From assembly GCF_029223285.1 (NCBI RefSeq), contig NZ_JARHUJ010000002.1, forward strand, positions 744,001 through 808,000: a DNA stretch of 64,000 bases, given 5' to 3'. Source of the DNA: Paraflavitalea sp. CAU 1676 (GTDB lineage Bacteria; Bacteroidota; Bacteroidia; Chitinophagales; Chitinophagaceae). Each line of letters starts with the position of its first letter. Position 1 is the stretch's first letter. The notes under the pieces are model-generated. The model was not told the origin of the DNA. It did not search any database and saw only the letters and a program-made list of their open reading frames with translations. Of the stretch, positions 19,976 through 45,210 are shown in pieces. The position numbers were made by a program, and so were the translations under genes.

Positions 19976-20980
19976 TTACTTAATTTTAGGCTTGTGCTGC
20001 CTCTTTTTCCGATCTTCAGCATAAGATGGTATTTGTCCTTCGTACTGCTTTTGCAGTAATGCTAAAAGCATGTCGTTAGCCACTATCGGAGCCTCAGTTT
20101 CGGAAGCCTCCTTTTGATCGACAGGTGAGTGAGTTGGGGCACTTTGTTGTTTTTGCGCAAAACCACCATTGTTCTTCAAAAAGCCGCTAATTTTTGCTTC
20201 TTCTGAGTTTTGCGCAGTATAGAGCAATTGCCGCTTTATTGTCGGAGATTTTATAGAAAGTATCCGCTCGATCTTAGCCAGTGAAAAGCCGACTTCGCTG
20301 CCTTTTATCTTCACCTTCTTGTTATCAATAAAGGAGATGCCCCGCGCCCTAATTACCTGGTACCCGGCAGCTTTCATGCCTTGCTCGAATTCGCTGTAAC
20401 TGGTAGCTTTCTGTAACATCCCTTTAATTTGAGTTTTCAGCTGTTCTTTGCGCAGATCCTGCCGTGGAATCAACCTTTGCTCTTTTGACAAAAACTGCCT
20501 CGGACTAAGCACTTGTTGCAATTCGTGCTTCAGTTCCATTTTCCGGCAGTATTGGGCAACTTTTCTATAACTGTTGCTATCGCTTACAGTTTTCCTGTCG
20601 AACCCAATTCGGTTGACTACAATGTGTAGGTGCTGGTGGTTGGTGTCTTTGTGCAGAATGCCCACATACTGATTATTGGCAAATCCCATTTCCCGCGCGC
20701 ATTCTTCGCACAAGTCCATCAGTTTGTCCTTTTCCAGTTTTTCACCGGGCGCCAGGCTAAGGGTAATATGAAGCACCGGATTCGATAGTTTCGGGTTTAA
20801 TTGGCGGACCTCATTAAATTGCCTGATCAACTCCTTTTCTGTTCCGCCGCATTGATTGAACATGATCACCTCAGCACGGTCTTTCATGACCTGCTCATTC
20901 TTGAGTTCTTCAACTTTATCATGCAGGCAGTAACTTAGGCACCCACGAAAGGATTTTCCGGTTACAACTTTTGCTATCAT
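19976..20980 (-). CDS. mobA: Relaxase / mobilization nuclease (MobA/VirD2 type)
   Basis: 334 residues. The relaxase domain occupies the first 160: MIAKVVTGKSFRGCLSYC (catalytic region; Tyr17 is the candidate nucleophile), HITLSLAPGE, and the metal-binding motif HKDTNHQHLHIVVNR (His115, His117, His119). The C-terminal half is basic and probably contacts DNA or partners. It nicks and covalently binds the transfer strand at oriT. The start overlaps the mobC stop (ATGA at 20977-20980). Together with mobC, the primase and the integrase it marks island A as mobilizable. No conjugation pore genes are present, so a helper element would be needed. Confidence 0.9.
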   Translation of the reverse strand: MIAKVVTGKSFRGCLSYCLHDKVEELKNEQVMKDRAEVIMFNQCGGTEKELIRQFNEVRQLNPKLSNPVLHITLSLAPGEKLEKDKLMDLCEECAREMGFANNQYVGILHKDTNHQHLHIVVNRIGFDRKTVSDSNSYRKVAQYCRKMELKHELQQVLSPRQFLSKEQRLIPRQDLRKEQLKTQIKGMLQKATSYSEFEQGMKAAGYQVIRARGISFIDNKKVKIKGSEVGFSLAKIERILSIKSPTIKRQLLYTAQNSEEAKISGFLKNNGGFAQKQQSAPTHSPVDQKEASETEAPIVANDMLLALLQKQYEGQIPSYAEDRKKRQHKPKIK

Positions 20981-21363
20981 TGGAGGTAATTTTTGATATC
21001 CCAGACAATCTGTTTGAATTGTCCAGCGAGTGTTTGTAGTATGGCTCTATCAATGGCGTTAAGCGGTTCGATCCCATTTCTCTTTTTAGCAATCTGATTG
21101 AGGTTTGCCGCGCTGTGATTGAGGGTACCCATAAGCTGCAAAACCTCGGGCGGCAAGCTCTTTTCACGCCTGTCAATTTTACCGGTAAGGCCCATGTGGC
21201 GGAGGTATTCTGAAATAGAAAGATTAGCCAGCTTAGACTTTTCTTCAATCAGTTGTCTTTCTTCCTGGGTGCATTTTACACCCAATAGGCAGCCTTTTTT
21301 GTTGGCCGATTTTGGCCTGCCTCCCTTACGATTACCTGTATGTTTGTTTACCTCATTTTTCAT
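20977..21363 (-). CDS. mobC: MobC-type relaxosome accessory protein
   Basis: 128 residues. A basic N-terminus (GNRKGGRPKSANKKG) leads to a ribbon-helix-helix-like segment (VKCTQEERQLIEEKSKLANL, SISEYLRHMGL). The conserved NLNQIAKKRN helix of bacterial MobC proteins follows at about residue 90. It binds oriT DNA and helps load the relaxase. It is the first gene of the mob operon, and the candidate oriT lies immediately upstream. Confidence 0.88.
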   Translation of the reverse strand: MKNEVNKHTGNRKGGRPKSANKKGCLLGVKCTQEERQLIEEKSKLANLSISEYLRHMGLTGKIDRREKSLPPEVLQLMGTLNHSAANLNQIAKKRNGIEPLNAIDRAILQTLAGQFKQIVWDIKNYLQ

Positions 21364-21383
21364 GATTTCTGGTTTTCGTTTTT

Positions 21384-21480
21384 CGAATCCCGCGCTGAGC
21401 GGGATGAGAAAAACGACCTTCCGAATCCGCCAGGATGAGGAAGCCAGTGTTTCGGTTATACCGAAACATAGCTGGCTCCC
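21384..21480. other. oriT: Candidate origin of transfer (oriT)
   Basis: The region upstream of mobC holds two inverted repeats. One is ATCCCGC / GCGGGAT (21387-21393, 21399-21405). The other is compound: AGCCAG (21442-21447) with CTGGCT (21472-21477) enclosing GTTTCGGT / ACCGAAAC (21449-21456, 21460-21467). Placement before the relaxosome genes and the hairpin layout match oriT regions of mobilizable elements. The nick site cannot be assigned. Confidence 0.6.
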
Positions 21481-21486
21481 GAACGA

Positions 21487-22434
21487 CTAAGCGCGCAGCC
21501 CCCTACGAGCGACCTGTTGGTGCTTGGTGTTTCTATTGACCAGGTATTCGTTAAAGTCTTTAAACCCGACGTAGATTTGGCTCTTGTCTATATACCTTTC
21601 TTGGGCCCGTTGAATAGCCTGGAGCGCGTGTTTCTGGCCCGGCGGATCTCTGTCAAGGTATAGGTGTACCTGCTGGTGAGCGTCCATTGTTAGCCTGGCC
21701 GATTGGAAGAAAGAAAGGCTATTGAGTACCAGAAAATTTGTCAGGGCAGGCTTTTGATCCTGTATCATTATTTGGAAGGAAAGAAAGCTGAAAACGCCTT
21801 CGAATACGGCAACAACCTGGCTGCCATTATTAATAAATGTAGGAGCTTTGGGAGAACTGCTTCCCTTGAAATTATCACAGCGTAACTCATAGCCTCCTGC
21901 ATTATTTTTAAACCCGATGGCCGAATGCCTTTTCCCGTACAATTCGAAAGAAACCTCCTTGCAGTAGGCATGTGCGATTTTAAGCGGAATACACCGCTTT
22001 TCACAATACTCCACGAGCTGGCCAGAAGTGAGCGGGCCGACCTCCAGAACGATTAATTTACCGGGACGCTCTGTTTTCTTTTCACCAGCCTCCTGGCCGG
22101 CGAGCGCGGCCAGGGCTGAAAACGCGGAAATGGGCTGGTGAAAGGAAAGGGTAGGGCCGAAGCCCATACCCTGTAACTTTTGCAAAAGCTCGCTAACGGT
22201 ACACCTGAAATAAAGGACGCCGAAGTCAATCAGGTTACCGCCTTGGCCTGTCCCGAAATCAAACCAACAATTCAGCTTTTTGCTCACTTTGAAGGAAGCG
22301 GTGTTTTCCCCCCGGAGCGGCGATTTATACCAGGAATCGTCGTTTCTTAATTTTTCGGGCCGGTAGCCCAGTTTTGCCAAAAATTCAACCAAGTCGATCT
22401 TTTTGGCATCGGTACACGAAAGCTTCTTTTCCAT
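21487..22434 (-). CDS. CHC2/Toprim-type DNA primase of the mobilizable element
   Basis: 315 residues from the ATG at 22434; the longer frame to 22617 overlaps the upstream gene. The N-terminal domain resembles DnaG zinc-binding folds (YKSPLRGENTASFKVSKKLN, CWFDFGTGQGGNLIDF), although the classic cysteine set is incomplete. The Toprim half has VVAVFEGVFSFLSFQ (catalytic Glu) and VHLYLDRDPPGQKHA (DxD). It would prime replacement-strand synthesis after transfer. It lies between the excisionase-like gene and mobC, as in related Bacteroidota elements. Confidence 0.82.
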   Translation of the reverse strand: MEKKLSCTDAKKIDLVEFLAKLGYRPEKLRNDDSWYKSPLRGENTASFKVSKKLNCWFDFGTGQGGNLIDFGVLYFRCTVSELLQKLQGMGFGPTLSFHQPISAFSALAALAGQEAGEKKTERPGKLIVLEVGPLTSGQLVEYCEKRCIPLKIAHAYCKEVSFELYGKRHSAIGFKNNAGGYELRCDNFKGSSSPKAPTFINNGSQVVAVFEGVFSFLSFQIMIQDQKPALTNFLVLNSLSFFQSARLTMDAHQQVHLYLDRDPPGQKHALQAIQRAQERYIDKSQIYVGFKDFNEYLVNRNTKHQQVARRGLRA

Positions 22435-22484
22435 ACGGAATGGTTTAATGGTTGAATAATCCACCAAATTCGTTTGAATAGGGG

Positions 22485-22814
22485 TCAGCCCGTCTGGATG
22501 AGCTGTTGCACATCCTGTGAGAGAAAGAAGACCCTTGAGCGGACTTTGAAGGGTTTTAGCTTTCCGTGCTTGATCCAGTCGTAGATGGTGGGTTTGGTGA
22601 CCTGGAAGAGTTGGCACACCTCAGCAATCTTTAGAAGCGGTTTGTGAGTGAGCCCCGGAGTTTCTAAAAGGGGCGGGGCAGGAGCGGGAATTTGGGCTTC
22701 CAGCTTTTTGACCTCTTCGCGGATAATGAGACGGACTTGTGCCCAGAATTGGGCAGGCTCGATGGGGAATAACATCGGGGTAGCCTGGTTACTTGGTTTC
22801 AGAGATTCTTGCAT
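22485..22814 (-). CDS. Excisionase-type HTH_17 DNA-binding protein
   Basis: About 109 residues from the ATG at 22814 (alternative 22832). The C-terminal 55 residues form a MerR-like HTH_17: LLKIAEVCQLFQVTKPTIYD, then WIKHGKLKPFKVRSRVFFLS. The N-terminal half is Pro-rich and helical. Proteins of this type act as recombination directionality factors or regulators of mobilization. It is the first gene upstream of the primase, on the same strand. Confidence 0.82.
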   Translation of the reverse strand: MQESLKPSNQATPMLFPIEPAQFWAQVRLIIREEVKKLEAQIPAPAPPLLETPGLTHKPLLKIAEVCQLFQVTKPTIYDWIKHGKLKPFKVRSRVFFLSQDVQQLIQTG

Positions 22815-34346: not shown

Positions 34347-35417
34347 CTATAGTTCAACCACAAGTACTTCTCCTTCTTTAGGATAGGTTGTGGTGTATCC
34401 ATACCTTTTCTTTAAGTTCGTGTTGTCCCAAATTTCGTTATAATCAGAACGATAGTTAAAAACAAGCATAGGGGGAACGGTGGACCTTTTAATAACCCAG
34501 GCGACCGCTTCCGGGTTTGGATGGCCATAATTACTTCCGTTAGTAGAAATCACAAACTTATTACAAAGCAATTTTTCAATAAGGTCGGGACTAGTGTTTT
34601 TTTTACTGCCATGATGAGATAGCTTTACAAGCTCGAATGGCGCTTGATTCTTATAGATTCTATCGAGCGATTGTTTTACTGTTGATGGAAATGCATCTCC
34701 ACAAAGCAAAACAGATTTTTTATTATACGTTGCAATGAAGGCAATACTACTCCCATTCGCCTCGCCACGGTCTTCCTCAAACTTTGTACTGTTTAACTTT
34801 TCAACATCGGGGCTGGCAGGAGGACCAAAGCTTTCCATTTCTTCATTATCTATCTCTGGGTCGATCAGTCCATAGCCTGGTTGCAGTCCATTCTTTCTCA
34901 CCTCTCTTTCCCAAACAGGTCTTAGTTTTTGTAAATGTTTCCAATACGGCGATAATATTGTTATCTCCAGGCCCAGCTCCAACTTTACAGTTAGTAGCGC
35001 ATCTGCTTCATCTGCAAAAGCAGCAGCATTGCTAAATGCTTCGTTCCAGGGAATTTTATGTTTTATCAGCGCAGCGGATAGTCTTTCGCCCTGATCCGGG
35101 CCAAATTGCTCCGACTCATCTTTTTCTTGAAGCTGTGCCCATCCATTAAACCAAAAGTCTGATATTGTAAAACCCAGGGTATCGTTTTCAAGCAGGGCAA
35201 GGATTCCCTCGATATGATCTCTATCGACATGAGTAACAACAATCAGCTCAAAGTGCCGTTTACCCAAAGGTAATGTTTCGATGAAGCCGCTGATATCTAC
35301 TTTTGTTCCCGAAGTGCCACCATCTATGAGGATATTTTTGAGCTCTCGTTCGTTCCCATATTCTATCCATATGCAATCTCCATAACGGGCGGGTAAGAAA
35401 TGAATATTAAAGGCCAT
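34347..35417 (-). CDS. Metallo-beta-lactamase-fold hydrolase (ComEC-like)
   Basis: 356 residues. The start (MAFNIHFLPARYGDCIWIEY) and LIDGG are typical of cytoplasmic ComEC/Rec2-like MBL domains. The metal motif is THVDRDHIEG (His63, Asp65, Asp67, His68), with later CGDAF and LSHHGSKKN. All zinc ligands seem present. Such domains hydrolyse nucleic acid or nucleotide phosphoesters in several defence settings. It is the last gene of an operon led by a caspase-like protease (29 bases after the preceding stop). It could be an effector nuclease activated by cleavage, or a signal-degrading enzyme. Both are inference. Confidence 0.78.
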   Translation of the reverse strand: MAFNIHFLPARYGDCIWIEYGNERELKNILIDGGTSGTKVDISGFIETLPLGKRHFELIVVTHVDRDHIEGILALLENDTLGFTISDFWFNGWAQLQEKDESEQFGPDQGERLSAALIKHKIPWNEAFSNAAAFADEADALLTVKLELGLEITILSPYWKHLQKLRPVWEREVRKNGLQPGYGLIDPEIDNEEMESFGPPASPDVEKLNSTKFEEDRGEANGSSIAFIATYNKKSVLLCGDAFPSTVKQSLDRIYKNQAPFELVKLSHHGSKKNTSPDLIEKLLCNKFVISTNGSNYGHPNPEAVAWVIKRSTVPPMLVFNYRSDYNEIWDNTNLKKRYGYTTTYPKEGEVLVVEL

Positions 35418-35446
35418 ATGTTAGGTTATTAATGTAAATTCAACTG

Positions 35447-36622
35447 TTAGTTTTTTGGATGGAAATCAATGAGAGTGCAGGTGGGCCGACTCATATTTGC
35501 CTTGGCAACATAAGCCCTTACAGTGCTGAGCGCCGAATTGACAAATTTGTCCCGGCCTTCAAGGAAAACAGCTATTTTTTCAAGACCATCATGGAGCAAG
35601 CGCAAGCCTTCTGTGTAGATCGGGATACCTCGTCTAAACCCCTGCAATAACCGCTTTTTAATTATTATGATGTCTTCGTCAGTTTTTGGGGTTTTGGACA
35701 TCAGAAACCATGCGTCTATGATTGCGCCATCTGGCATCCAAAGAAACCAGTTTGCCAAGTTATTAGTCCAGTCGTGCATTCTGTCCCATGCCTGCATTTT
35801 AAGGAGGTAATATCCACCTATCGCCGCTCCTGCAGGATCTTCCTTTTTATTTTGCAGTAAAAACTCTGCACTGATTGCATTAAACAGCGTTTCTTCTTCC
35901 ACTACGGGGCCACGGGTCAACATTGTAAGGAGTGCATCATTCGCCCATTGGCGGGTTTGGAAGTTGAACTCATAGGGCGTTTGATCTGATCCTTCAGTTC
36001 GCACTCGCGACACGGTTACAAATAATTTATTCGTAGGAGGAATGCAGACAAAATTCGAGGGCGCATTGGGAATGGCAACCTCAATGGCAAAACTTTTCTT
36101 TTCATAATTTTCCCAGGTAAAACCAGTACCTGTTACATCAGGAAAAATCCTTTCGTCGCTCCAAACTCTGCGTAACCACTTACCTCGCGGAAGTCTTTCC
36201 CAAAGAATTATTCTATCGAGGAGCCGGAAAATATTTGTTGGAAATCCTTTATAAATTGCGTCATAAGGCCCTTTTATCAAGGATCTATGTTTGGGCTGCC
36301 ATCCAACATGAGTATCAGAAAGCACGATGGTGCGCGTATTCTTATTGTTAACGGTCAAAAGTTCGTCGATTGGAGTTTCTCCATCAACTGTGATTACTCT
36401 ATCAATTTGCTGCCCGTCTAACAGGATAGCCCTGATTACATATGTTCCCTTTTCCTGAGCTGGCAGGTTAAAATATCCGTCTTTGCTCCAGATAGAAGAT
36501 AAAAGGCTAAGATTTTGATTCAGGAGTTGTATCTGAATTGGAGAAGCGAGGTCATCCCTAAAGCGGTAGCCCTCAACATCTACAAATCCTGATATTTCAG
36601 ATAAATTGTTACTAGATGACAT
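35447..36622 (-). CDS. Uncharacterised protein with N-terminal beta-sandwich, middle gene of the caspase operon
   Basis: 391 residues, no signal peptide. Residues about 8-85 look like a carboxypeptidase-regulatory/Ig-like beta sandwich (ISGFVDVEGYRFRDD, then GYFNLPAQEKGTYVIRAIL). The rest is helical with several Trp (WENYEKKSFAIEVAIPNAP onward). No catalytic motif is recognised. Its start overlaps the caspase gene by 11 bases, so the two are coupled in translation. It may be the target, scaffold or sensor of the caspase. Confidence 0.6.
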   Translation of the reverse strand: MSSSNNLSEISGFVDVEGYRFRDDLASPIQIQLLNQNLSLLSSIWSKDGYFNLPAQEKGTYVIRAILLDGQQIDRVITVDGETPIDELLTVNNKNTRTIVLSDTHVGWQPKHRSLIKGPYDAIYKGFPTNIFRLLDRIILWERLPRGKWLRRVWSDERIFPDVTGTGFTWENYEKKSFAIEVAIPNAPSNFVCIPPTNKLFVTVSRVRTEGSDQTPYEFNFQTRQWANDALLTMLTRGPVVEEETLFNAISAEFLLQNKKEDPAGAAIGGYYLLKMQAWDRMHDWTNNLANWFLWMPDGAIIDAWFLMSKTPKTDEDIIIIKKRLLQGFRRGIPIYTEGLRLLHDGLEKIAVFLEGRDKFVNSALSTVRAYVAKANMSRPTCTLIDFHPKN

Positions 36623-37751
36623 TCAGGGATTTTTTAACTGATGGAGGATTGGCGGTGACAAAGTCTTTTTGCGGCTTAAATTCATTAGCGTTGAAGTCAG
36701 CACTGACCTCATAAATGCCAGCCTTTACATTTATTTTCCAAGGGGCGGGCGTTGGTGTTCGTCTTTCAGTAAAGGATGATTTTGAATGTCTATAAGAAAG
36801 CTCAGCCACACCGAGCGCCGATTCAGGAAGACAGGTCAAATTCATAACGACTTGCGGAGGTTCTGCGAATCCAATAATCTCAGTTGACCTATTAGAATAC
36901 TGTGAACAACGTTGCCTGTCACCCTGCCCCGGTTTAATTAGTTCCATCAGTTCATAGATTCTGCTGGCAATAAGGCTGGTATCAACTCTCCATTCATCTT
37001 CAACGCCTGTGGCCCCTTGGCCGGTCAACGCCAGTATCAGCGCACTGCTATAAACGGACACCTGGTTAGGATCGCCGAATGCTTTTTCGTTGTGAGCAGA
37101 CGCTTTCAGTGTCAGGTTGTATTTGCATTCTGAATCCAGGTAGGCAGCATTGTCCAGTCCCATAACGCTAATATCCTTGTCCAATAACTCATAGGGAACC
37201 ATCCGGCATGAGTCTATAAAAAAAAGCTGCGTTTGAGCTTTGCAGCTATGAAATGCTCGTCTCGTATGATCAAAATTAAAAGCTTCCCGCCATGGCATTT
37301 CAGGCATACTGCCAAACCCTTCCGTTAGCAGGTATTGATCTGCTTTTTCAAGACCGTGGCCACAGAAATAAAAGATGGCAACATTGTCTTCATTAGTATC
37401 ACACCTAGCCTTCCAGTCAACATATCCCTGATAAATGTTTTGCCAGGTTGCCTTGTCGCAGGTAGGTTGTTTGGGAGTGGCTGAGTCTGAATACTCTGAA
37501 ATCAGTAGTTCTATCGAGCCCAAAGGTTTGAGCCATCTACCGGTCTGATCTCCGTTATGAATTCCAATTACGGTTTTATAGAACGCCAAAGCTGAAACAG
37601 GGGCCGAAGTAAGCTGTCCCATCGAACCTAATAACTTGTTCTGACCCTGTCTGTAATGCGCGCCATCTTTAAGCCATGGATAACTACCTACACCGATTAT
37701 GAAAACATGGGTTTGGGGATTATCATTTATTTCGTTGAAAACTAATGACAT
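36612..37751 (-). CDS. Caspase-like cysteine protease (peptidase C14 family)
   Basis: 379 residues. The C14 fold shows strand THVFIIGVGSYPWLKDG, the catalytic His in VAIFYFCGHGLEKADQYLL (His132) and the catalytic Cys in QLFFIDSCRMVP (Cys182). Both dyad residues are intact. A C-terminal beta-sandwich-like tail (about 300-379) may bind a partner. It is the first gene of a three-gene operon with the beta-sandwich protein and the MBL hydrolase. Prokaryotic caspases in defence islands act as proteolytic switches or death effectors. The specific trigger here is unknown. Confidence 0.82.
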   Translation of the reverse strand: MSLVFNEINDNPQTHVFIIGVGSYPWLKDGAHYRQGQNKLLGSMGQLTSAPVSALAFYKTVIGIHNGDQTGRWLKPLGSIELLISEYSDSATPKQPTCDKATWQNIYQGYVDWKARCDTNEDNVAIFYFCGHGLEKADQYLLTEGFGSMPEMPWREAFNFDHTRRAFHSCKAQTQLFFIDSCRMVPYELLDKDISVMGLDNAAYLDSECKYNLTLKASAHNEKAFGDPNQVSVYSSALILALTGQGATGVEDEWRVDTSLIASRIYELMELIKPGQGDRQRCSQYSNRSTEIIGFAEPPQVVMNLTCLPESALGVAELSYRHSKSSFTERRTPTPAPWKINVKAGIYEVSADFNANEFKPQKDFVTANPPSVKKSLNVI

Positions 37752-38342: not shown

Positions 38343-39482
38343 TTAAATTTCTTTGAGACCAAAATCAATACGAAGTTCATTGATAGCGTCAGTCTCATAT
38401 TTATAGTAGTTTGCCGAGTTCGTTTGTGCTTGGCGCCAACCTTTATTTAATACTTGGGCAACAGAGAGGTGACCGGCTTGTGCTAACTCAGGATAGGAAA
38501 CGAGGTCCGCATTTTGGTAGAATGCAAAGAACTCATCAATCACATGTTGCAATAAATAGTCCGGGTATAGTAACGCGTGTTCTTTAGGCACCTGTGGATG
38601 TGTTTCTTGCAAAAAGATCTGCCAGGCTAACTCAATCTCCGCTTTTTCCTGATGAAGTCCCAGCTTATCAAGCATACAAATGATCAAGCGCATACGAGCC
38701 TCATCTGCCGGGTGAGATTCGTTTCGCTCATATATTTTGCCGAACCCACGTCCGGTAGAGAGCAACTTAAGGTTGGTCCAGCCATAGGCTGCCCCGGTCA
38801 TATAGGCACCTACCAGATCACAACTAAATTCTTCCAGCCAAGATTCCTTCCATAAATACTTTGCCTCATCTATTGCATCTGCATAGTGAGCTCCCAACCC
38901 TTCATCCTGGATGCGGACTAGCTCTCGATCAAAATGTTGTTCAATTACACCGCTGGATATTTCACAACTTTTCCCCTGGAACATGGAGTGAAGCAAATGC
39001 CCAATTTCATGATACATGTCTGGCAGATTCAATAAGCTGTATTCTTCCCCACATGGCAATGCGATGATTTCGAAATAGGGTACTGCCCAGTAATAGGAAT
39101 CATGATTGCTAATAGTTGATACAATAGGCGGGATGGCAGAAATGCGATGTTCTGAATAAATCTTAGAAATAAGTTTAAAAAAGAAAATTTCGGGGTCGTC
39201 ATAATTCCTGATAGCCAGATAACGATAAGAGTGAATAGCCATGAAAGTCCTGTAAAGACCATTGAATTTATACAAATTGTTGCCTTCCATTTGTGGTAAA
39301 TCCAGGTCCCCTCCATTGATAGTGCTTATTATTTCATCCCGAATATCGGAAAATTGTTTATTCGTTTCAGCAATAAAGCGATTTCTTATATCTGGATGGA
39401 TGCTACGACCATTAATGTCAGCCACTACAATATCAATCCGGTGTAACAAATCCACGTACAAGGCCTTAATAAAATCTTTCAT
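38343..39482 (-). CDS. HExxH metallopeptidase, last gene of the Argonaute operon
   Basis: 379 residues, no signal peptide. The zinc motif is LPDMYHEIGHLLHSMF (His158, Glu159, His162). A gluzincin-type third ligand helix lies 56 residues later (SWLEEFSCDLVGAY; Glu218, then Asp222). This set is complete for an active MA-clan peptidase. The start overlaps the stop of the preceding small gene (ATGA at 39479-39482). Being in an operon with a sigma factor, an XRE-like protein, a nuclease and Argonaute, it could cut the repressor (as ImmA/IrrE-type enzymes do) or be a toxic effector. Both are inferred. Confidence 0.72.
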   Translation of the reverse strand: MKDFIKALYVDLLHRIDIVVADINGRSIHPDIRNRFIAETNKQFSDIRDEIISTINGGDLDLPQMEGNNLYKFNGLYRTFMAIHSYRYLAIRNYDDPEIFFFKLISKIYSEHRISAIPPIVSTISNHDSYYWAVPYFEIIALPCGEEYSLLNLPDMYHEIGHLLHSMFQGKSCEISSGVIEQHFDRELVRIQDEGLGAHYADAIDEAKYLWKESWLEEFSCDLVGAYMTGAAYGWTNLKLLSTGRGFGKIYERNESHPADEARMRLIICMLDKLGLHQEKAEIELAWQIFLQETHPQVPKEHALLYPDYLLQHVIDEFFAFYQNADLVSYPELAQAGHLSVAQVLNKGWRQAQTNSANYYKYETDAINELRIDFGLKEI

Positions 39483-39916
39483 CCTCTGCTGGTTCGTAAT
39501 TTTTTAAACAATACGGATGCTTCGTTATCCAGAACTGATATGAATCTATCTACGTTGAGAAGATCCTCAATGGTGAGTTCTGTTTGGGTATTAAGCTTAT
39601 TAAGTGCAGTATTTATCTGCTCTTTAAACTCGATATTTTGCAATACCTGGTTCTTAAATAACTGATTGGTCATTAACTCATACAGCTCATTGTGGATATC
39701 CTGTTTGTTGTAAAACTGTTCCAGTAAGGACAGGATGCTGTGAAGCGTTTTTTTTGCCTTTTCTGTATCTTCTTCGCTTACCTTTAACTGCGCAGCTGCC
39801 TGGTTATTCTGGTTTATTAAATTTCTTTTTTTAAGTGTAATAATTGCGTTGTTCAAATCATTTGTAAGATTTGAAACAGAATTATATTTTTTATATAAAT
39901 GACTAAAGTCGCTCAT
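39479..39916 (-). CDS. Small helical protein of the Argonaute operon
   Basis: 145 residues from the ATG at 39916 (MSDFSHLYKKYN). An upstream in-frame ATG at 40000 would overlap the Argonaute gene and add residues that look like a shadow of it. The protein is wholly helical and polar, with coiled-coil stretches (about 15-50 and 95-125). No known domain. It is wedged between Argonaute (10 bases upstream) and the metallopeptidase (4-base overlap), and is probably an adaptor or inhibitor of one of them. Confidence 0.6.
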   Translation of the reverse strand: MSDFSHLYKKYNSVSNLTNDLNNAIITLKKRNLINQNNQAAAQLKVSEEDTEKAKKTLHSILSLLEQFYNKQDIHNELYELMTNQLFKNQVLQNIEFKEQINTALNKLNTQTELTIEDLLNVDRFISVLDNEASVLFKKLRTSRG

Positions 39917-39926
39917 AATGTTGCTT

Positions 39927-42320
39927 TTAAGCCACATGGGCGTGAACAATATTGCTTTCTTTCTGACGAATCGTAGCCAGATCATTCTCATGGGCGACAT
40001 CCCGGATCAGCGTATCAATCAGTTTCAATGGTAACGGCAGGGATGTGGGACGGTCGGGTGATGAGAACGTTATTTGTGTCAGATTGAAAATGTCCTGTAG
40101 CGCCTGCCCAAAATTAATATTTCCGCAACAATAGCTAATATGAATAGGCTGCGATGTTCCCGGAACCTGATAAGGATACCCTGTATTAAATATAAACGCA
40201 TCCTTTTTATTTTGTTCATTCGGATAAAGGTAGGTGCCACAGTCGGGGTTATGCAAGATACGTCTTGAATCATCGTATGTAGTCACGCGAATAGGAATTG
40301 CAGATGTCTTTGCGACGTTGATTACCCCGGTTTTTACAGCACCAGCATCAAGCAATTTCATTTCTGCGAGCTGATGCAGTGCATTTTGTAGCGCTTTTTC
40401 TTCTTCGCCAAAACTAACACCATCCCGAAGAATAACGATGCTGCCTGGCTTGTCTTTACTAACCTTCAGGTGGCGGGAAAGCACACTTACAATCTTATCT
40501 GATATCACCCGGTGATTAATCTTTTCGTTTCGGGAAGAGCCAACGGCTTTAGCGACAGGATCTATATCAAAGACAATTTTTTCTCCATTGCCAAAGAAAA
40601 AGCAGAACCCGGCATAAAAGTCATGCGCATCAATTCCAATGTAGATATCATGATGGAGTGGCTGAGCCAGTGCAAATGGCCATTTACGATTAATAATCAG
40701 ACATTCAAAAAGGGTGTAAGACAAATAGGAGCGGAAGCTGCGCATCAAATCGTCAGGAACTGTATATGATAAGGGTTCCCGTCCGTCCGTGCCTAATTTG
40801 AGAAAACTTTTAAGTTTATCAGCACTTACGCACTTAACTTTTACGGTGTTAAATAATTCTTTCTTGAGCATTTGATGAAATACCCTATTAAAGCGACCTC
40901 CATCACCATTGTCTTCGGGAAGGACCAGCAAAATACTGGTGCCCGCCAGGTTATGTTTATCAATATACTCTTTAAGGTCCTGGAATACCTTATGAGCATA
41001 GGGCGCCGAGCGCATTGAATATTGATGCAGGGAACACTTTGGAAATTGGGGTGCAATCTGTTTCATCCCCTTTTCAAAGTGATACTTTAACCCTTGTCCA
41101 AAGTTTAACGGAAGGTTGTCTGGAAACAGGATATGCTGGGCGTTAAATGCACTTTGGTTGATAATGCCATACTTGTAAACAAATTCGCGACGTCGCTTTG
41201 CAAAGTCCTTAAGGGCTTTTCCGTATTGGCTGGCATCTTGCTGTACATCCAGGATTTGGCCTTTACCATACATAAGCGCAGGTAGCGGAAACGTACCGCA
41301 CTGTTTAGACAGCGCTTTTTTTGCAACCTGTAATGAAACACCGTTAAATTGTAGCGACTGGAAATAGTATTTTACGAAGCTTTCGATTCGGGTAAAGCGC
41401 TGATTGGGTTCATTAATTGAGAATTTGTGAAGGTTGTCTTCTGGGTATCTGATGCGTTTGGCAAGGCATGCAGCACCGGCTAAAATGCGCTCTGAATTAT
41501 AGCCATTCGTGTGAAAGAAAGTCGGAGACTTCGGACGAAGTGGTGCTTTATGAGTAGCTGTACTGTACTTACCTTTGTGTTGTATGTACTGAAGAACGGT
41601 AATGTTCTTGCCCTGTATGTTGATCACATGCTGATCAATTGGATTACCTGGCGATTTCCCTTTCACGGTATACCAGTTATCACCGTTTAAATACAAAAAG
41701 TTACGGTCGCGTATGTATTCGATCTGCAGTTGCTCGCTCATTCCGGCAATTGCTTCGTCCAAAGTTCTTTTGTCAGCATACCGGTAGGCGAGATCAATGC
41801 AGAAAAATGCATTGTCTTTATCCAGTAGTACTACCTTAAATTTGAATCCAGGGAATATATCTGTTTCGATATCGCCGCTTAAAGGTAATGGGCTTTTTTT
41901 CAGGAACGTGTTTATTCCACCATCCCATAAGTCACGTCTATTGCCCAGTTGCCAGTTAACTGCGCTTTCCAGGAATCGTTGTACAAGTTCCAGGTTTGAA
42001 TTATCGATGTTTTTACAATTCAGTTGAAAAACACCATCCAGGGGGCTGAGCTCGATATTAAGGGGGCTTCCGGCAATCACCTCCCGTTTCAGAACTGCAT
42101 CAGCTTTAACCGCCACATATCTTCTGCCATTGTGCATGGCGATTGCAGCAGGGCCTTTAGTGATATCTGACAGATGGCTCACAGCATGGTGAAATGCCTT
42201 GTGTGCTTGGCGTTCATCATGACCTGCTCCTTGTACACTAACATTTACCAGTTGGTAACTGAGTTTAAGGTCATGCCAGTTGCTGATTCTGAACCAATTG
42301 ATAATATTCGCGCTCATCAT
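39927..42320 (-). CDS. Prokaryotic Argonaute (full-length, catalytic type)
   Basis: 797 residues, the length of long pAgos. N and PAZ-like regions occupy about 1-300 (FKFKVVLLDKDNAFFCIDLAY, then RTLDEAIAGM). MID is near 460-540 (SILLVLPEDNGDGG). PIWI is 555-797: YIGIDAHDFYAGF (Asp564), SRNEKI (Glu599), VILRDGVS (Asp633) and SLPLPLKLIDTL (Asp769). Spacing of 35, 34 and 136 residues resembles the DEDX tetrad of active pAgos such as TtAgo, so target slicing is likely. The start overlaps the Cas4-like gene by 50 bases. It is the centre of a six-gene operon. The nature of guide and target (DNA or RNA) cannot be told from sequence. Confidence 0.85.
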   Translation of the reverse strand: MMSANIINWFRISNWHDLKLSYQLVNVSVQGAGHDERQAHKAFHHAVSHLSDITKGPAAIAMHNGRRYVAVKADAVLKREVIAGSPLNIELSPLDGVFQLNCKNIDNSNLELVQRFLESAVNWQLGNRRDLWDGGINTFLKKSPLPLSGDIETDIFPGFKFKVVLLDKDNAFFCIDLAYRYADKRTLDEAIAGMSEQLQIEYIRDRNFLYLNGDNWYTVKGKSPGNPIDQHVINIQGKNITVLQYIQHKGKYSTATHKAPLRPKSPTFFHTNGYNSERILAGAACLAKRIRYPEDNLHKFSINEPNQRFTRIESFVKYYFQSLQFNGVSLQVAKKALSKQCGTFPLPALMYGKGQILDVQQDASQYGKALKDFAKRRREFVYKYGIINQSAFNAQHILFPDNLPLNFGQGLKYHFEKGMKQIAPQFPKCSLHQYSMRSAPYAHKVFQDLKEYIDKHNLAGTSILLVLPEDNGDGGRFNRVFHQMLKKELFNTVKVKCVSADKLKSFLKLGTDGREPLSYTVPDDLMRSFRSYLSYTLFECLIINRKWPFALAQPLHHDIYIGIDAHDFYAGFCFFFGNGEKIVFDIDPVAKAVGSSRNEKINHRVISDKIVSVLSRHLKVSKDKPGSIVILRDGVSFGEEEKALQNALHQLAEMKLLDAGAVKTGVINVAKTSAIPIRVTTYDDSRRILHNPDCGTYLYPNEQNKKDAFIFNTGYPYQVPGTSQPIHISYCCGNINFGQALQDIFNLTQITFSSPDRPTSLPLPLKLIDTLIRDVAHENDLATIRQKESNIVHAHVA

Positions 42321-43284
42321 ACCTGAAATTATTGAGAATTAAATGAATACAGAGTGGTTTAAACTTACACAAAGCACAAGTTTCCTTCTTATCCGTGGTT
42401 TGGTAATCTTCTATATTGAGTTCGTCCCATTTTTGAACTGAGGACAATTGTTCCTGTTCATTGCGAAATCTGTAAACATAATCAAGGGCAGCCGCTGTGC
42501 TTTCCCTGCTGAAAGCATGCTCTTTAATGTTGCCATTCATGAGATTAATTTCAAAAAGAGAAACATCTTCCATCTTCGGTAGATCCCACCCTTTGGCCTG
42601 GAAGTCCTTTTTAATATTATGGTAAGCTACGATACCCGCCAGGTATAGCTGCATAGAGTAATCGCTACTGTCACTGTCAGAAACCTTCCAGTCGATTACA
42701 TGGATAGCTTTCCCACGGTAACGTACCAGGTCAATCTGCGGTTTAATTCGCATGTCCTCAAATTGGTAATGCCAATAATTAATATTAGGTCGCAGAAAAT
42801 TAGAAGTCATTAGATATTCATGAAGCGATTTTCCTGCTTCAGGGCTGCCATATTCAGGAATTTGCATGATTATATCACTGACAGTAGCATAAATCTCCGA
42901 AATATCGTCTTCGCAATATGGTAATCCGCGTTCGTGAATATCCAACACCAGAAATTCTTCGCCAGCTTTGGTTTTAGACATGCCTTTTTGTCTGTAAAGT
43001 TGTTTTCGTGAAAACTCATACTGGAGTGAGGCAATATCGGTGATCTCGTTGGCAAGAGCTGAAAAGTCAGGTACCTCCTTATTTTGGTACATTGCAATAA
43101 GTATCTCACTAAATGCAAAGTCAACCAATGAACCTTGCCACATTTTCAGGCTTTTTGATTGAGTCAGTTCAAAAGCTTTTCTTCGTACAGGGTGTGTAAA
43201 ATGGTGGGAAGCTAGTTCATGCGCAAAATAAAATTTGCGATGGCATTGTCTGAGATTTAACAATTTTGAAATACTCCAATCCAT
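42271..43284 (-). CDS. Cas4-like Fe-S PD-(D/E)XK nuclease
   Basis: 337 residues. The layout is that of Cas4/AddB-type nucleases: SISKLLNLRQCHRKFYF with Cys14, IKPQIDLVRY (Asp185), HVIDWKVSD (Asp198-x-Lys200), MQLYLAGIVAY (Gln212, QxxxY) and ETCALCKFKPLC (Cys303, Cys306, Cys312). The four cysteines should hold a 4Fe-4S cluster, and the active site looks complete. No cas1, cas2 or CRISPR array is present. It precedes and overlaps Argonaute. It may trim DNA ends to make guides or destroy targets; Cas4-like genes are known as pAgo neighbours. Confidence 0.85.
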   Translation of the reverse strand: MDWSISKLLNLRQCHRKFYFAHELASHHFTHPVRRKAFELTQSKSLKMWQGSLVDFAFSEILIAMYQNKEVPDFSALANEITDIASLQYEFSRKQLYRQKGMSKTKAGEEFLVLDIHERGLPYCEDDISEIYATVSDIIMQIPEYGSPEAGKSLHEYLMTSNFLRPNINYWHYQFEDMRIKPQIDLVRYRGKAIHVIDWKVSDSDSSDYSMQLYLAGIVAYHNIKKDFQAKGWDLPKMEDVSLFEINLMNGNIKEHAFSRESTAAALDYVYRFRNEQEQLSSVQKWDELNIEDYQTTDKKETCALCKFKPLCIHLILNNFRYDEREYYQLVQNQQLA

Positions 43285-43296
43285 TTTACACCTTAT

Positions 43297-43905
43297 TTAT
43301 GCTTGTTGATAAAGTTCTGACAGTCGTTGAGTGTATTTATCCAGTGCCTCTTTGTTTTGGTATAAATAGCTTTCATCTTGTTTTAGGTGTCTAAAATCAC
43401 TTTGCTGAGCGTGCTGTGATATGCCTTTTTTAAAGGCTGGTTGAATTTTTGTTGGCATACTTGAAAATATCCGGCTTTCAGTTTGCAGTTTTTCGAATGT
43501 CGCGGCAATGCCAGCAGTGGCCTTTGCCAATGAAATGTTTAAGATTTTAATCAACTTGAGAAGGGATTTTACTGGTACGCTATTGGTAAAAACCATATCG
43601 TTTTTTATATTTTCCAATAGAGACGGAGTTAAACCAGTGGCCTGGTGTAGATCTGGCAGTGGCGTAACACTGGTATTCATTGCATCCTTAACCAACGCAC
43701 CAAGCGTTTCTTTAGTTAAGGAGTTGGTGAGCTTAGCGATCAACAGTTCGGTCTTTTCGCTAGAAAGGGAAGCGATAGCAGCTCTTGAGAATACGATTTC
43801 CGCTTCTTTTTCCAGGTTACCCCCAGTTGTGCCGAGCTCGTTTTCATTGATAACAAGTGTCATCAACAGGTCATTAAACGGTTGTGTATGTTGGTTCCCT
43901 TTCAT
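43297..43905 (-). CDS. Helical XRE-like protein of the Argonaute operon
   Basis: 202 residues, no membrane segment. The middle (LPDLHQATGLTPSLLENIKN, then SVPVKSLLKLIKILNIS) has the helix pattern of XRE/antitoxin DNA-binding domains, but the match is weak. The start overlaps the sigma-factor stop (ATGA at 43902-43905), so the two are co-translated. A soluble anti-sigma or repressor role would fit. It is 12 bases upstream of the Cas4-like gene. Confidence 0.55.
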   Translation of the reverse strand: MKGNQHTQPFNDLLMTLVINENELGTTGGNLEKEAEIVFSRAAIASLSSEKTELLIAKLTNSLTKETLGALVKDAMNTSVTPLPDLHQATGLTPSLLENIKNDMVFTNSVPVKSLLKLIKILNISLAKATAGIAATFEKLQTESRIFSSMPTKIQPAFKKGISQHAQQSDFRHLKQDESYLYQNKEALDKYTQRLSELYQQA

Positions 43906-44528
43906 GATAAACAGTCTTTAAGGATTTCTAATGTTTTCTTTTTTACTCTGGCTTTAGCCCTATTGAATTTTACTTTTAATTGATTGTTGGGGATGCCTAT
44001 CATTTCTGCAATTTCATTGTAACTGTAATTATTCATTCTTAACAGAAGAAGTTCCCGTTCTGTATCGGATAGTAGCAACAATGCCTTTTGCATGGCAAAC
44101 ATTAGTTGGCTTTGAGCTGATGCGTTATTATGAGGACCACTGGTCGAAATGCTCTCTATAACATCCGCAAATTCTTCCAGTGAAAAGTCGTCCTCATCCT
44201 CTTTCGCCTCTGCGATCCAATCTTGCATACTTACAGTCGGCAGTTCTTTGCTTTTCTGCGATCGAAGTATCTGTAAAATATTATTCTTATGAATTTTGAA
44301 CAACCAGTTTCGAAAATGACTTTCTGAGGTAAATTCATACCGAGTAATGACTCGTCCTACGGTCTCCAGGGTTTTATAAAGCACATCATAGCTGGCGTCC
44401 TCATCCAGGCGCCACTGATCAATACCATAGCTGTACAATTGTGGCCCATAACACCTATAGAGTAGAGCCACCCCTGTTCGTAAATCCTGCTGAAATTGTG
44501 ATATGATTTCTTGGTATTTCACTTTCAA
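43902..44528 (-). CDS. ECF-type sigma factor heading the Argonaute operon
   Basis: 208 residues. Region 2 is about 20-90 (ALLYRCYGPQLYSYGI, then HFRNWLFKIHKNNILQILRS). Region 4 is about 140-200 (LLLLSDTERELLLLRMNNYS, YNEIAEMIGIPNNQLKVKFN). No ATG begins the frame. The likely start is TTG at 44528 or GTG at 44522, with an in-frame stop shortly upstream. As first gene of the operon it probably drives its own transcription, so the system may be switched on as a block. A sigma factor in an Argonaute operon is unusual. Confidence 0.8.
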   Translation of the reverse strand: MKVKYQEIISQFQQDLRTGVALLYRCYGPQLYSYGIDQWRLDEDASYDVLYKTLETVGRVITRYEFTSESHFRNWLFKIHKNNILQILRSQKSKELPTVSMQDWIAEAKEDEDDFSLEEFADVIESISTSGPHNNASAQSQLMFAMQKALLLLSDTERELLLLRMNNYSYNEIAEMIGIPNNQLKVKFNRAKARVKKKTLEILKDCLS

Positions 44529-45210
44529 TATTTGTTCGTCTATATATTAATATGCTAAGAGGTTACAATAAAGTAAACCGTATTGATATTCAGTAGTTTA
44601 TAGTGGATTGGGTTGACAATCTTTTGTTGCTGATCTCTAGAGATTGATTTTTAAAACTGAAAAATAAGCTTCTTACGCATAATTTTGTTGACAAACAAAT
44701 ATTCGAAGAATTGGGAATGATTATAAGCAATGAAAGGAATTTAGGCAATCACCCATAAAAGTTGTAATAAGTTTTATGTGGAATTGGAGAGAAACTTATG
44801 ATCAAAACCAACTGTATTAAGAATTAACCAAATTTAATAACATCATTTTGCTCACGATATCTTGTAATTTGTATTATGATACCATTGAAAAGTGGAAAAG
44901 GAAGCTCGGTTTATCCAGTCTGAAAAAAATATTTCATTCCCCGACATCTTTATACCTATATCAGCGCACTTGGAGCGGAATTCGGTAAGTTGAATTATGT
45001 CCATGCTATGTCATTTTTATTGAGTTGCCAGGCTCTGTGACAGATGTAAAGTGATAATGCAGCAAAATTACTTGCAATTCAATTATTCATTATATTTAGG
45101 TAAGATTTGCATTGAAGTATAGAAATGTTGTCAGTGAGTGATTTTGTGAGTGATTTGAAAGTGTCTACGTAATTGATTGAATAATAATTATTCGCAATAA
45201 AAGTAGGAGA
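44529..45210. other. AT-rich promoter region and right end of island B
   Basis: About 680 bases with no supported gene. It contains the promoter of the leftward sigma-Argonaute operon. No standard TAnnTTTG box is evident, which would fit use of an alternative sigma factor. It ends at the decayed attachment repeat. Confidence 0.45.

Follow-up and report, generated by a model that had tools for sequence, protein, structure and literature searches.

The window analyzed here, a 64,000-nucleotide stretch of the 8.84 Mb genome of Paraflavitalea sp. CAU 1676 (contig NZ_JARHUJ010000002.1, positions 744,001 to 808,000), contains a conserved six-gene operon centered on a long prokaryotic Argonaute (pAgo), part of which has been described before. 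The genes occupy 38343-44528 on the minus strand and encode, in order of transcription, an extracytoplasmic function (ECF)-like sigma factor, an XRE-fold protein, a Cas4-like nuclease, the Argonaute, a small helical protein and a putative metallopeptidase. We propose, with a probability of about 0.4, that this PnyAgo-group operon is wired to a proteolytic sigma factor switch, in which target sensing would activate the peptidase and the peptidase would free the sigma factor from inhibition by the XRE-fold protein. The gene set, the intact catalytic residues, the constant co-occurrence of the genes and a promoter element upstream of the sigma factor gene can be read from the sequences themselves.

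A conserved operon with a constant peptidase-like partner

The first-pass annotation of the window had described six leftward genes, mostly overlapping or closely spaced, and all six were found with that spacing. Each gene overlaps the next or lies within 12 bp of it, with overlaps of 4 bp (sigma factor/XRE-fold protein), 50 bp (Cas4-like nuclease/Argonaute) and 4 bp (helical protein/peptidase), and gaps of 12 bp (XRE-fold protein to Cas4-like nuclease) and 10 bp (Argonaute to helical protein). Related loci were divided into group 2, i.e., 23 PnyAgo-type loci including that of the window, and group 1, i.e., 10 other long-pAgo loci including one on a Runella slithyformis plasmid. Seven duplicate loci (L042, L044, L045 and L068-L071) were dropped before these counts, and some of the rows that were kept are near-identical (L035/L039 and L026/L027). 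In the Argonaute tree, a branch with support 82/96, present in 83% of bootstrap trees, separated the 23 group-2 rows from the others; L030, L065 and L077 sat on long branches, which makes the membership of the first two in group 1 a loose one.

The Argonaute, the helical protein and the peptidase were each present in 23/23 group-2 loci. The sigma factor, the XRE-fold protein and the Cas4-like nuclease were each present in 22/23; in the remaining locus, L049, the contig starts partway through the Argonaute gene. An XRE-like gene split into two open reading frames in a metagenome-assembled genome (L035:7243-8021) was counted as present. Gene order was identical in all 22 complete loci. Because the same six-gene order was complete in 21 of the 22 other distinct group-2 loci, and is found again in different genera and families, a chance grouping of unrelated genes can be ruled out. 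Carriers include Chitinophaga costaii, Pedobacter nyackensis, Mucilaginibacter flavidus and Dyadobacter bucti; the first-pass annotation had staked its reading on co-occurrence in other Bacteroidota, and there the six genes do form one conserved operon.

In group 1, the peptidase was present in 10/10 loci, always with a small gene between it and the Argonaute, and the Cas4-like nuclease in 9/10 (the tenth, L029, is truncated). The sigma factor and the XRE-fold protein were found in 0/10 (including the truncated L029), and a helix-turn-helix (HTH) gene preceded the Cas4-like gene in 8/10, L029 being truncated and L074 having none. Across both groups, the small helical protein and the peptidase are constant partners of the Argonaute. 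The sigma factor and the XRE-fold protein travel as a pair, both being present in 22/23 group-2 loci and in a further locus described below (L064), and neither in group 1.

Among 394 genomes of the family, taken from their matching handles as the same draw in the Argonaute and peptidase searches, a strong Argonaute match (E ≤ 1e-24) was found in 11, with 8 more being weak. A strong peptidase match (E ≤ 1e-90) was found in 12, with 2 more weak, using a profile (A3) that contains rows from 9 of these 12 genomes. The two strong lists shared 11 genomes (11/11 of those with the Argonaute, 11/12 of those with the peptidase), and in 11/11 the two genes lay 355-460 bp apart with one small gene between them. 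These Argonaute counts rest on strong matches, the 8 weak ones among the 19 in the family lying outside the locus comparison, and the Argonaute model also matched one control genome, Synechococcus elongatus. Among 395 genomes of the class, the same 5 carried Argonaute (E ≤ 1e-40) and XRE matches, the XRE profile (A5) containing rows from 4 of the 5. The 395 genomes of the phylum gave 8 strong peptidase matches (2 more were weak), 7 of them with an Argonaute close by, using a profile (A2) built solely from loci found via the Argonaute. All three profiles are biased toward copies linked to an Argonaute. In the plasmid search the window peptidase was the only query, and 5/5 of the records that it matched also carry an adjoining Argonaute; in a sixth Argonaute record (Deinococcus), the peptidase-like gene has diverged and lies on the other strand. 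No Argonaute copies were found in viral contigs, and no peptidase copies in phage records or viral contigs.

The Argonaute (39927-42320, minus strand; 797 aa) matched the PADLOC pAgo_II model with an E value of 1e-281, and a phmmer search of the PDB returned 9wmd/8xih (E = 1e-141) and 7r8f/7r8k (E = 1e-45), long pAgos with which it aligns nearly end to end; its Pfam Piwi score of 27.3 is slightly below the gathering cut-off of 28.9. The DEDD tetrad picked out at first pass, Asp564/Glu599/Asp633/Asp769, is intact and was kept in 34/34 aligned Argonautes, the window included. This tetrad and the length of the protein rule out a short, catalytically inactive pAgo (SPARTA and similar). Identity with the window Argonaute is 53.5% for the P. 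nyackensis protein (L041), in which D563/E598/D632/D765, the published PnyAgo numbers, align with the window tetrad, and 22.3% for the R. slithyformis protein. By its matches, identity and place in the tree, it is a member of the PnyAgo group of D-R pAgos, i.e., those with a DNA guide and an RNA target. According to the text available to us, PnyAgo and HpeAgo cleave RNA using DNA guides, cleavage of DNA by PnyAgo being weak (Lisitskaya et al., 2022; PMC9360449). Because these are the closest characterized relatives, the target of the window Argonaute is likely to be RNA rather than DNA, contrary to the earlier suggestion that it cuts invader DNA.

The Cas4-like PD-(D/E)XK nuclease (42271-43284, minus strand) matched Pfam PDDEXK_1 (E = 2e-11) and the PADLOC model Aga_Cas4-like_Nuc (E = 4e-46). 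The four cysteines and D...DxK signature attributed to it at first pass correspond to C14/C303/C306/C312 and D185, D198 and K200, all of which were kept in 31/31 aligned proteins.

The small helical protein (39479-39916, minus strand) has the 145 residues first ascribed to it when translation begins at the ATG at 39916; the longest open reading frame there would give 173 aa. The stop of its gene overlaps the start of the peptidase gene by 4 bp in 19/23 group-2 loci, and the protein is related to five aligned group-1 small proteins, including that of R. slithyformis (hhalign probability 94.9%, E = 5e-8).

In the gluzincin-like putative metallopeptidase (38343-39482, minus strand; 379 aa), which is encoded close to the Argonaute, H158/E159/H162, E218, D222, H257 and R263 were invariant in 20/20 aligned relatives. 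The gluzincin features HExxH (158-162) and a downstream ExxxD (218-222) are both present and, together with a His and an Arg six residues apart, presumably recall neprilysin-type gluzincins. From this invariant motif set alone, a metallopeptidase identity is probable. The motif part of the earlier HEIGH metallopeptidase call therefore stands, but its zincin fold was not borne out: the AlphaFold2 model was confident and mostly helical (mean pLDDT, i.e., predicted local distance difference test, 92), and in a Foldseek search of the PDB it matched nothing at E ≤ 0.001. There was no match in the copies of Pfam, NCBIfam or PADLOC searched (in Pfam, no family at E ≤ 1), and a sequence search of the PDB gave 8 weak matches, the best being a designed helical repeat protein (E = 3e-4) and none being peptidase-related.

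Distant relatives of the peptidase were seen to adjoin dCTP deaminase-like genes (L092:7502-9647, L093:6588-8689, L073:17098-19146, L104:3522-5514, L105:2511-4469 and L066:7324-9351), with a small gene upstream in L092, L093, L073, L104 and L105; these relatives and the deaminase-like genes may possibly form a second defense module. Such distant relatives turned up on ten plasmids from E. coli/Salmonella, each about 90-96 kb in size, one of which (L104) was examined. On a Deinococcus plasmid (L077:8083-11655), a different long Argonaute is accompanied by a diverged HExxH peptidase that is encoded on the other strand.

Sigma factor, promoter element and XRE-fold protein

The ECF-like sigma70-family factor (43902-44528, minus strand) has 208 aa when read from the listed TTG, although its homologues suggest that translation starts at a GTG six bases further in. 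Its identity is supported by alignment and by matches to Sigma70_r4_2 (E = 3e-8) and to the sigma70-ECF model TIGR02937 (E = 5e-16, above cut-off); the III-E sigma model was matched weakly (31.8 bits against a cut-off of 100), with a score below that of the general ECF model.

Directly upstream of the sigma factor gene, at 44538-44567 on the minus strand, stands the sigma-type promoter element TGTAACC-N5-GCATA, with a TATAG-like block downstream. An element of the form (T/G)GTAACC-N5-(G/T)CAT was found upstream of the sigma factor in 23/23 loci with readable upstream DNA (22 group-2 loci and L064), at 28-65 nt from the listed start. L073 reads GGAT instead of (G/T)CAT, the listed sigma start of L022 precedes the element, and L043 carries an additional copy 124 nt upstream. 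Because GTAACC was a fixed part of the pattern used to pick the sites, these letters were in part bound to appear perfectly conserved, which does not hold for the presence of a site in all 23 loci or for the leave-one-out ranks. In a leave-one-out scan with a position weight matrix (PWM), which kept near relatives in the training set, the sigma-upstream site ranked first in its own locus in 23/23 cases. The window element was the sole match with no mismatch in the window, where matches with up to two mismatches occurred at chance level, and the only two motif matches in group-1 loci belong to L028, where they lie far from the operon. Because the element stands directly upstream of every readable sigma factor gene, autoregulation is probable, which upholds the earlier suggestion that the system is self-inducible.

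A wider sigma regulon in the host genome was ruled out, the sole other exact match to the motif there being inside a coding region. At a PWM score of ≥14 there were 11 further matches in the loci, among them the second L043 copy, versus 2 in one shuffled set; 6/11 lay inside listed open reading frames and four precede neighboring genes. Such extra matches were seen before multiubiquitin genes (L064:6500, minus strand, at 68 nt; L072:3929, minus strand, at 312 nt), before a DUF900 hydrolase gene (L040:1999, minus strand) and before a PIN-domain gene (L037:5489, plus strand). These sites are a lead toward a wider sigma regulon, not a proof of one.

The XRE-fold protein (43297-43905, minus strand; 202 aa) is a candidate anti-sigma factor or repressor, its fold and layout being judged from Foldseek, hhalign and column conservation. 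Its only Pfam match was a sub-threshold one to HTH_26 (E = 0.04). A poorly conserved N-terminus is followed by an HTH region (residues ~65-140), a variable linker and a conserved C-terminal helix. Most of the top Foldseek matches of its model were XRE proteins, with probabilities of up to 1.00 but E values of only 0.1, and at this low E-value support the middle domain appears repressor-like; comparison with the group-1 HTH regulators by hhalign gave a probability of 76.6% (E = 2e-5). Within the linker, a PA(F/Y)RKG-like motif (156-161) had a mean top frequency of 0.62, versus 0.28 and 0.25 on its flanks.

In one locus (L064:6577-9834, genome G035), the order is sigma factor, XRE-fold protein, a 136-aa protein, helical protein and peptidase, and there was no Cas4-like or Argonaute gene within the 18 kb read. 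Its promoter score (35.0) was the highest of all loci, and in a tree its peptidase nests among the group-2 peptidases, on a long branch. The 136-aa protein had no Pfam match above cut-off, and shares 38.6% identity with proteins from Synechococcus plasmids that carry a GIY-YIG nuclease annotation. The place of the peptidase in the tree suggests a replacement of the Cas4-like and Argonaute genes. Because L064 keeps all four of the other genes and its peptidase nests within group 2, the sigma factor, XRE-fold protein, helical protein and peptidase appear to form a separable unit. The GIY-YIG gene was rejected as a constant partner of the peptidase: the two plasmid homologues that were examined, of seven records matched, were without such neighbors.

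A candidate proteolytic switch and its alternatives

At rest, in the scheme that we propose, the XRE-fold protein would hold the ECF-like sigma factor inactive, with low expression maintained by basal transcription. The Cas4-like nuclease might help to produce DNA guides out of invader DNA, or to trim them, and the guide-loaded Argonaute would meet invader transcripts and cut them. We infer that the target-bound Argonaute would also activate the peptidase, until then held by its small helical partner, and that the peptidase would cleave the XRE-fold protein, acting as anti-sigma factor, possibly at the PA(F/Y)RKG-like motif of the linker. Removal of a repressor by the peptidase had been one option of the first-pass annotation, and it is still the reading that we favor. 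The freed sigma factor would then bind the TGTAACC promoter and amplify the whole operon and, in some relatives, perhaps neighboring defense genes.

There are precedents for such a circuit in CRISPR immunity, one being the type III-E CASP system, also named Craspase. Within CASP, as set out in the text available to us, recognition of RNA switches on a protease, the protease cuts an inhibitor of the sigma factor, and motifs for that sigma factor occur in its own locus (PMC10028731). In Calp, a type III CRISPR system, the available text describes a SAVED-Lon protease, CalpL, which is activated by cyclic tetra-adenylate (cA4) and cleaves the anti-sigma factor CalpT, releasing CalpS (PMC12751052). 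The likeness of the window operon to CASP (Cas7-11/Csx29/Csx30/CASP-sigma) lies in a putatively RNA-recognizing effector, a protease, a candidate sigma inhibitor, an ECF-like sigma factor and motifs in its own locus; that to Calp lies in a protease, an anti-sigma factor and a sigma factor placed downstream of RNA sensing. The operon is nevertheless a member of neither CRISPR family. CASP has a CRISPR effector and a TPR-CHAT protease where the window has an Argonaute and an HExxH protein, and cleavage of the sigma inhibitor, which has been demonstrated in CASP, we infer here. Among 10 window genes scanned against Pfam and PADLOC, no match to Cas7-11 or TPR-CHAT was found, and none to Lon or SAVED was listed.

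The switch is favored by these two precedents, by the closeness of the Argonaute to PnyAgo with its tetrad intact, by the joint travel of the sigma factor and XRE-fold protein, by the pair of small gene and peptidase in 23/23 group-2 and 10/10 group-1 loci, by the promoter-like element in 23/23 sigma loci, by the separable unit seen in L064, and by an XRE linker that is variable except for its PAFRKG-like motif.

Several observations weigh against it. The group-1 loci carry the small protein and the peptidase with no sigma factor, and the cyanobacterial locus L074 has no adjacent regulator, so freeing a sigma factor cannot be the only role of the peptidase; nor was a sigma factor noted where peptidase relatives stand by dCTP deaminase genes. 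The Foldseek result leaves the zincin fold of the peptidase unsupported, the model of the XRE-fold protein is weak (pLDDT 68), and that protein has no recognized anti-sigma domain. No second promoter was seen in the host genome, and the promoter-like sites by neighboring genes are weak and small in number. L064 is the only locus of its kind: the two plasmid homologues examined lack such neighbors, and 22 other genomes around G035 gave no XRE match.

The chief alternative, which we consider somewhat unlikely, is that the peptidase is a toxic effector of abortive infection, silenced by an antitoxin-like helical protein and freed when the Argonaute recognizes its target; it would degrade essential host or phage proteins, and the sigma factor and XRE-fold protein would only control expression of the operon. 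This would suit the occurrence of the pair without a sigma factor in group 1 better than the switch does, and it accords with the pair being the most constant companion of the Argonaute in both groups, with the 4-bp overlap of the two genes in 19/23 group-2 loci, and with the small upstream gene of the distant peptidase relatives that accompany dCTP deaminase genes. L064, however, ties the helical protein and the peptidase to the sigma factor and XRE-fold protein rather than to the Argonaute, which suits a regulatory link, and searches of Pfam, PADLOC and NCBIfam assigned the peptidase to no known family of toxins or effectors. Short pAgo systems need a separate effector, whereas the Argonaute here is itself predicted to be catalytic.

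ImmA/IrrE-type peptidases act on XRE repressors, and the juxtaposition of an HExxH protein and an XRE-fold regulator in the window recalls them, although the window peptidase, with no Pfam match at E ≤ 1, does not belong to the ImmA/IrrE Pfam family. The XRE-fold protein might thus be a DNA-binding repressor of the operon that the peptidase cuts, the sigma factor being an independent activator. Its middle domain resembles XRE repressors and is related to the group-1 HTH regulators, which precede the Cas4-like gene in 8/10 loci, so one mechanism of repressor cleavage could serve both groups. We nevertheless regard this as unlikely: neither the sigma factor nor the XRE-fold protein occurs without the other, which would be natural for a sigma/anti-sigma pair, and the upstream element is not palindromic and resembles a sigma promoter rather than a dimer operator. 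It is highly improbable that the helical protein and peptidase, though neighbors of the Cas4-like and Argonaute genes in both groups, merely process one of those proteins for guide biogenesis or maturation, or clear used complexes, with no signaling, since L064 keeps the pair without either gene.

Part of the operon was already on record, contrary, as regards the sigma factor, to the first-pass view that no described system adds a sigma factor and a zinc peptidase. Of the two D-R pAgo groups that have been distinguished, both have a Cas4-like nuclease, which the PliAgo type combines with an HTH regulator and the PnyAgo type (Pedobacter nyackensis, Hydrobacter penzbergensis) with a sigma70 factor (Lisitskaya et al., 2022; PMC9360449). 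That description already covers three genes of the operon, the window sharing with the PnyAgo group, as far as that text describes it, the DEDD Argonaute, the preceding Cas4-like nuclease and the sigma70 factor; the P. nyackensis locus (L041) has the same six-gene order as the window. The passage on neighbors in that paper names the nuclease, the sigma factor and, for the other group, the HTH regulator; the XRE-fold protein, helical protein, peptidase and promoter go unmentioned in it (PMC9360449). With the PliAgo/RslAgo group, represented by the R. slithyformis plasmid locus, presumed to be that of RslAgo, the window shares the Cas4-like nuclease, Argonaute, small protein and peptidase. That group differs in having an HTH regulator instead of the sigma factor and XRE-fold protein, in the lack of any TGTAACC element found, and in its Argonaute, at 22.3% identity.

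New relative to the texts consulted, so far as these were available, are the constant pair of small protein and peptidase, the promoter element and the swapped-gene locus L064. Among the literature matches listed, which do not extend to preprints and cannot prove absence from print, we recognized no paper joining a pAgo to a peptidase and a sigma factor, and no in-cell study of PnyAgo or PliAgo. If the pair is constant in both groups, the published biochemistry, to the extent of the text available, has studied these Argonautes without two core partners.

We offer, still more tentatively than the switch, a form of Argonaute signaling immunity, in which DNA-guided recognition of foreign RNA would activate an unnamed HExxH peptidase and so release a dedicated sigma factor. 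If true, an Argonaute-driven protease-sigma circuit would have converged with the CASP and Calp circuits of CRISPR, giving RNA-triggered proteolytic control of transcription a CRISPR-independent origin. The unit of sigma factor, XRE-fold protein, helical protein and peptidase would then fit different sensors, i.e., the Argonaute with the Cas4-like nuclease, or a GIY-YIG protein. Such a circuit would also make it possible to test directly the purpose of RNA targeting, and might yield a DNA-guided, RNA-triggered protease tool. The helical protein/peptidase pair, the autoregulatory element and L064 make a signaling role for D-R Argonautes directly testable.

Neighboring genes

An adjacent operon in the window (34347-37751) contains caspase-fold, 391-aa and metallo-beta-lactamase (MBL)-fold genes, and recurs beside the Argonaute operon at L050:1111-4539. 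It was ruled out as a core part of the system, the triad being found, within the flanks read, in one other locus only (L050); an MBL homologue without the rest of the triad lies in the flanks of L075. Further away in the window (19976-22617), relaxase- and primase-like genes, recognized by eye, suggest mobile-element DNA.

In other loci, a RecD-like helicase (PADLOC), which we take to be PIF1-like, was found near the operon in 11/35 loci scanned (L021, L024, L026, L027, L038, L040, L041, L046, L047, L050 and L063) but not near the window copy. At L052:13062-15157, a gene pair encoding HNH and AAA proteins lies beside the operon, and similar genes occur in L051, L072 and L073; the L052 HNH protein, the sole one tested, matched PtuB of Septu.

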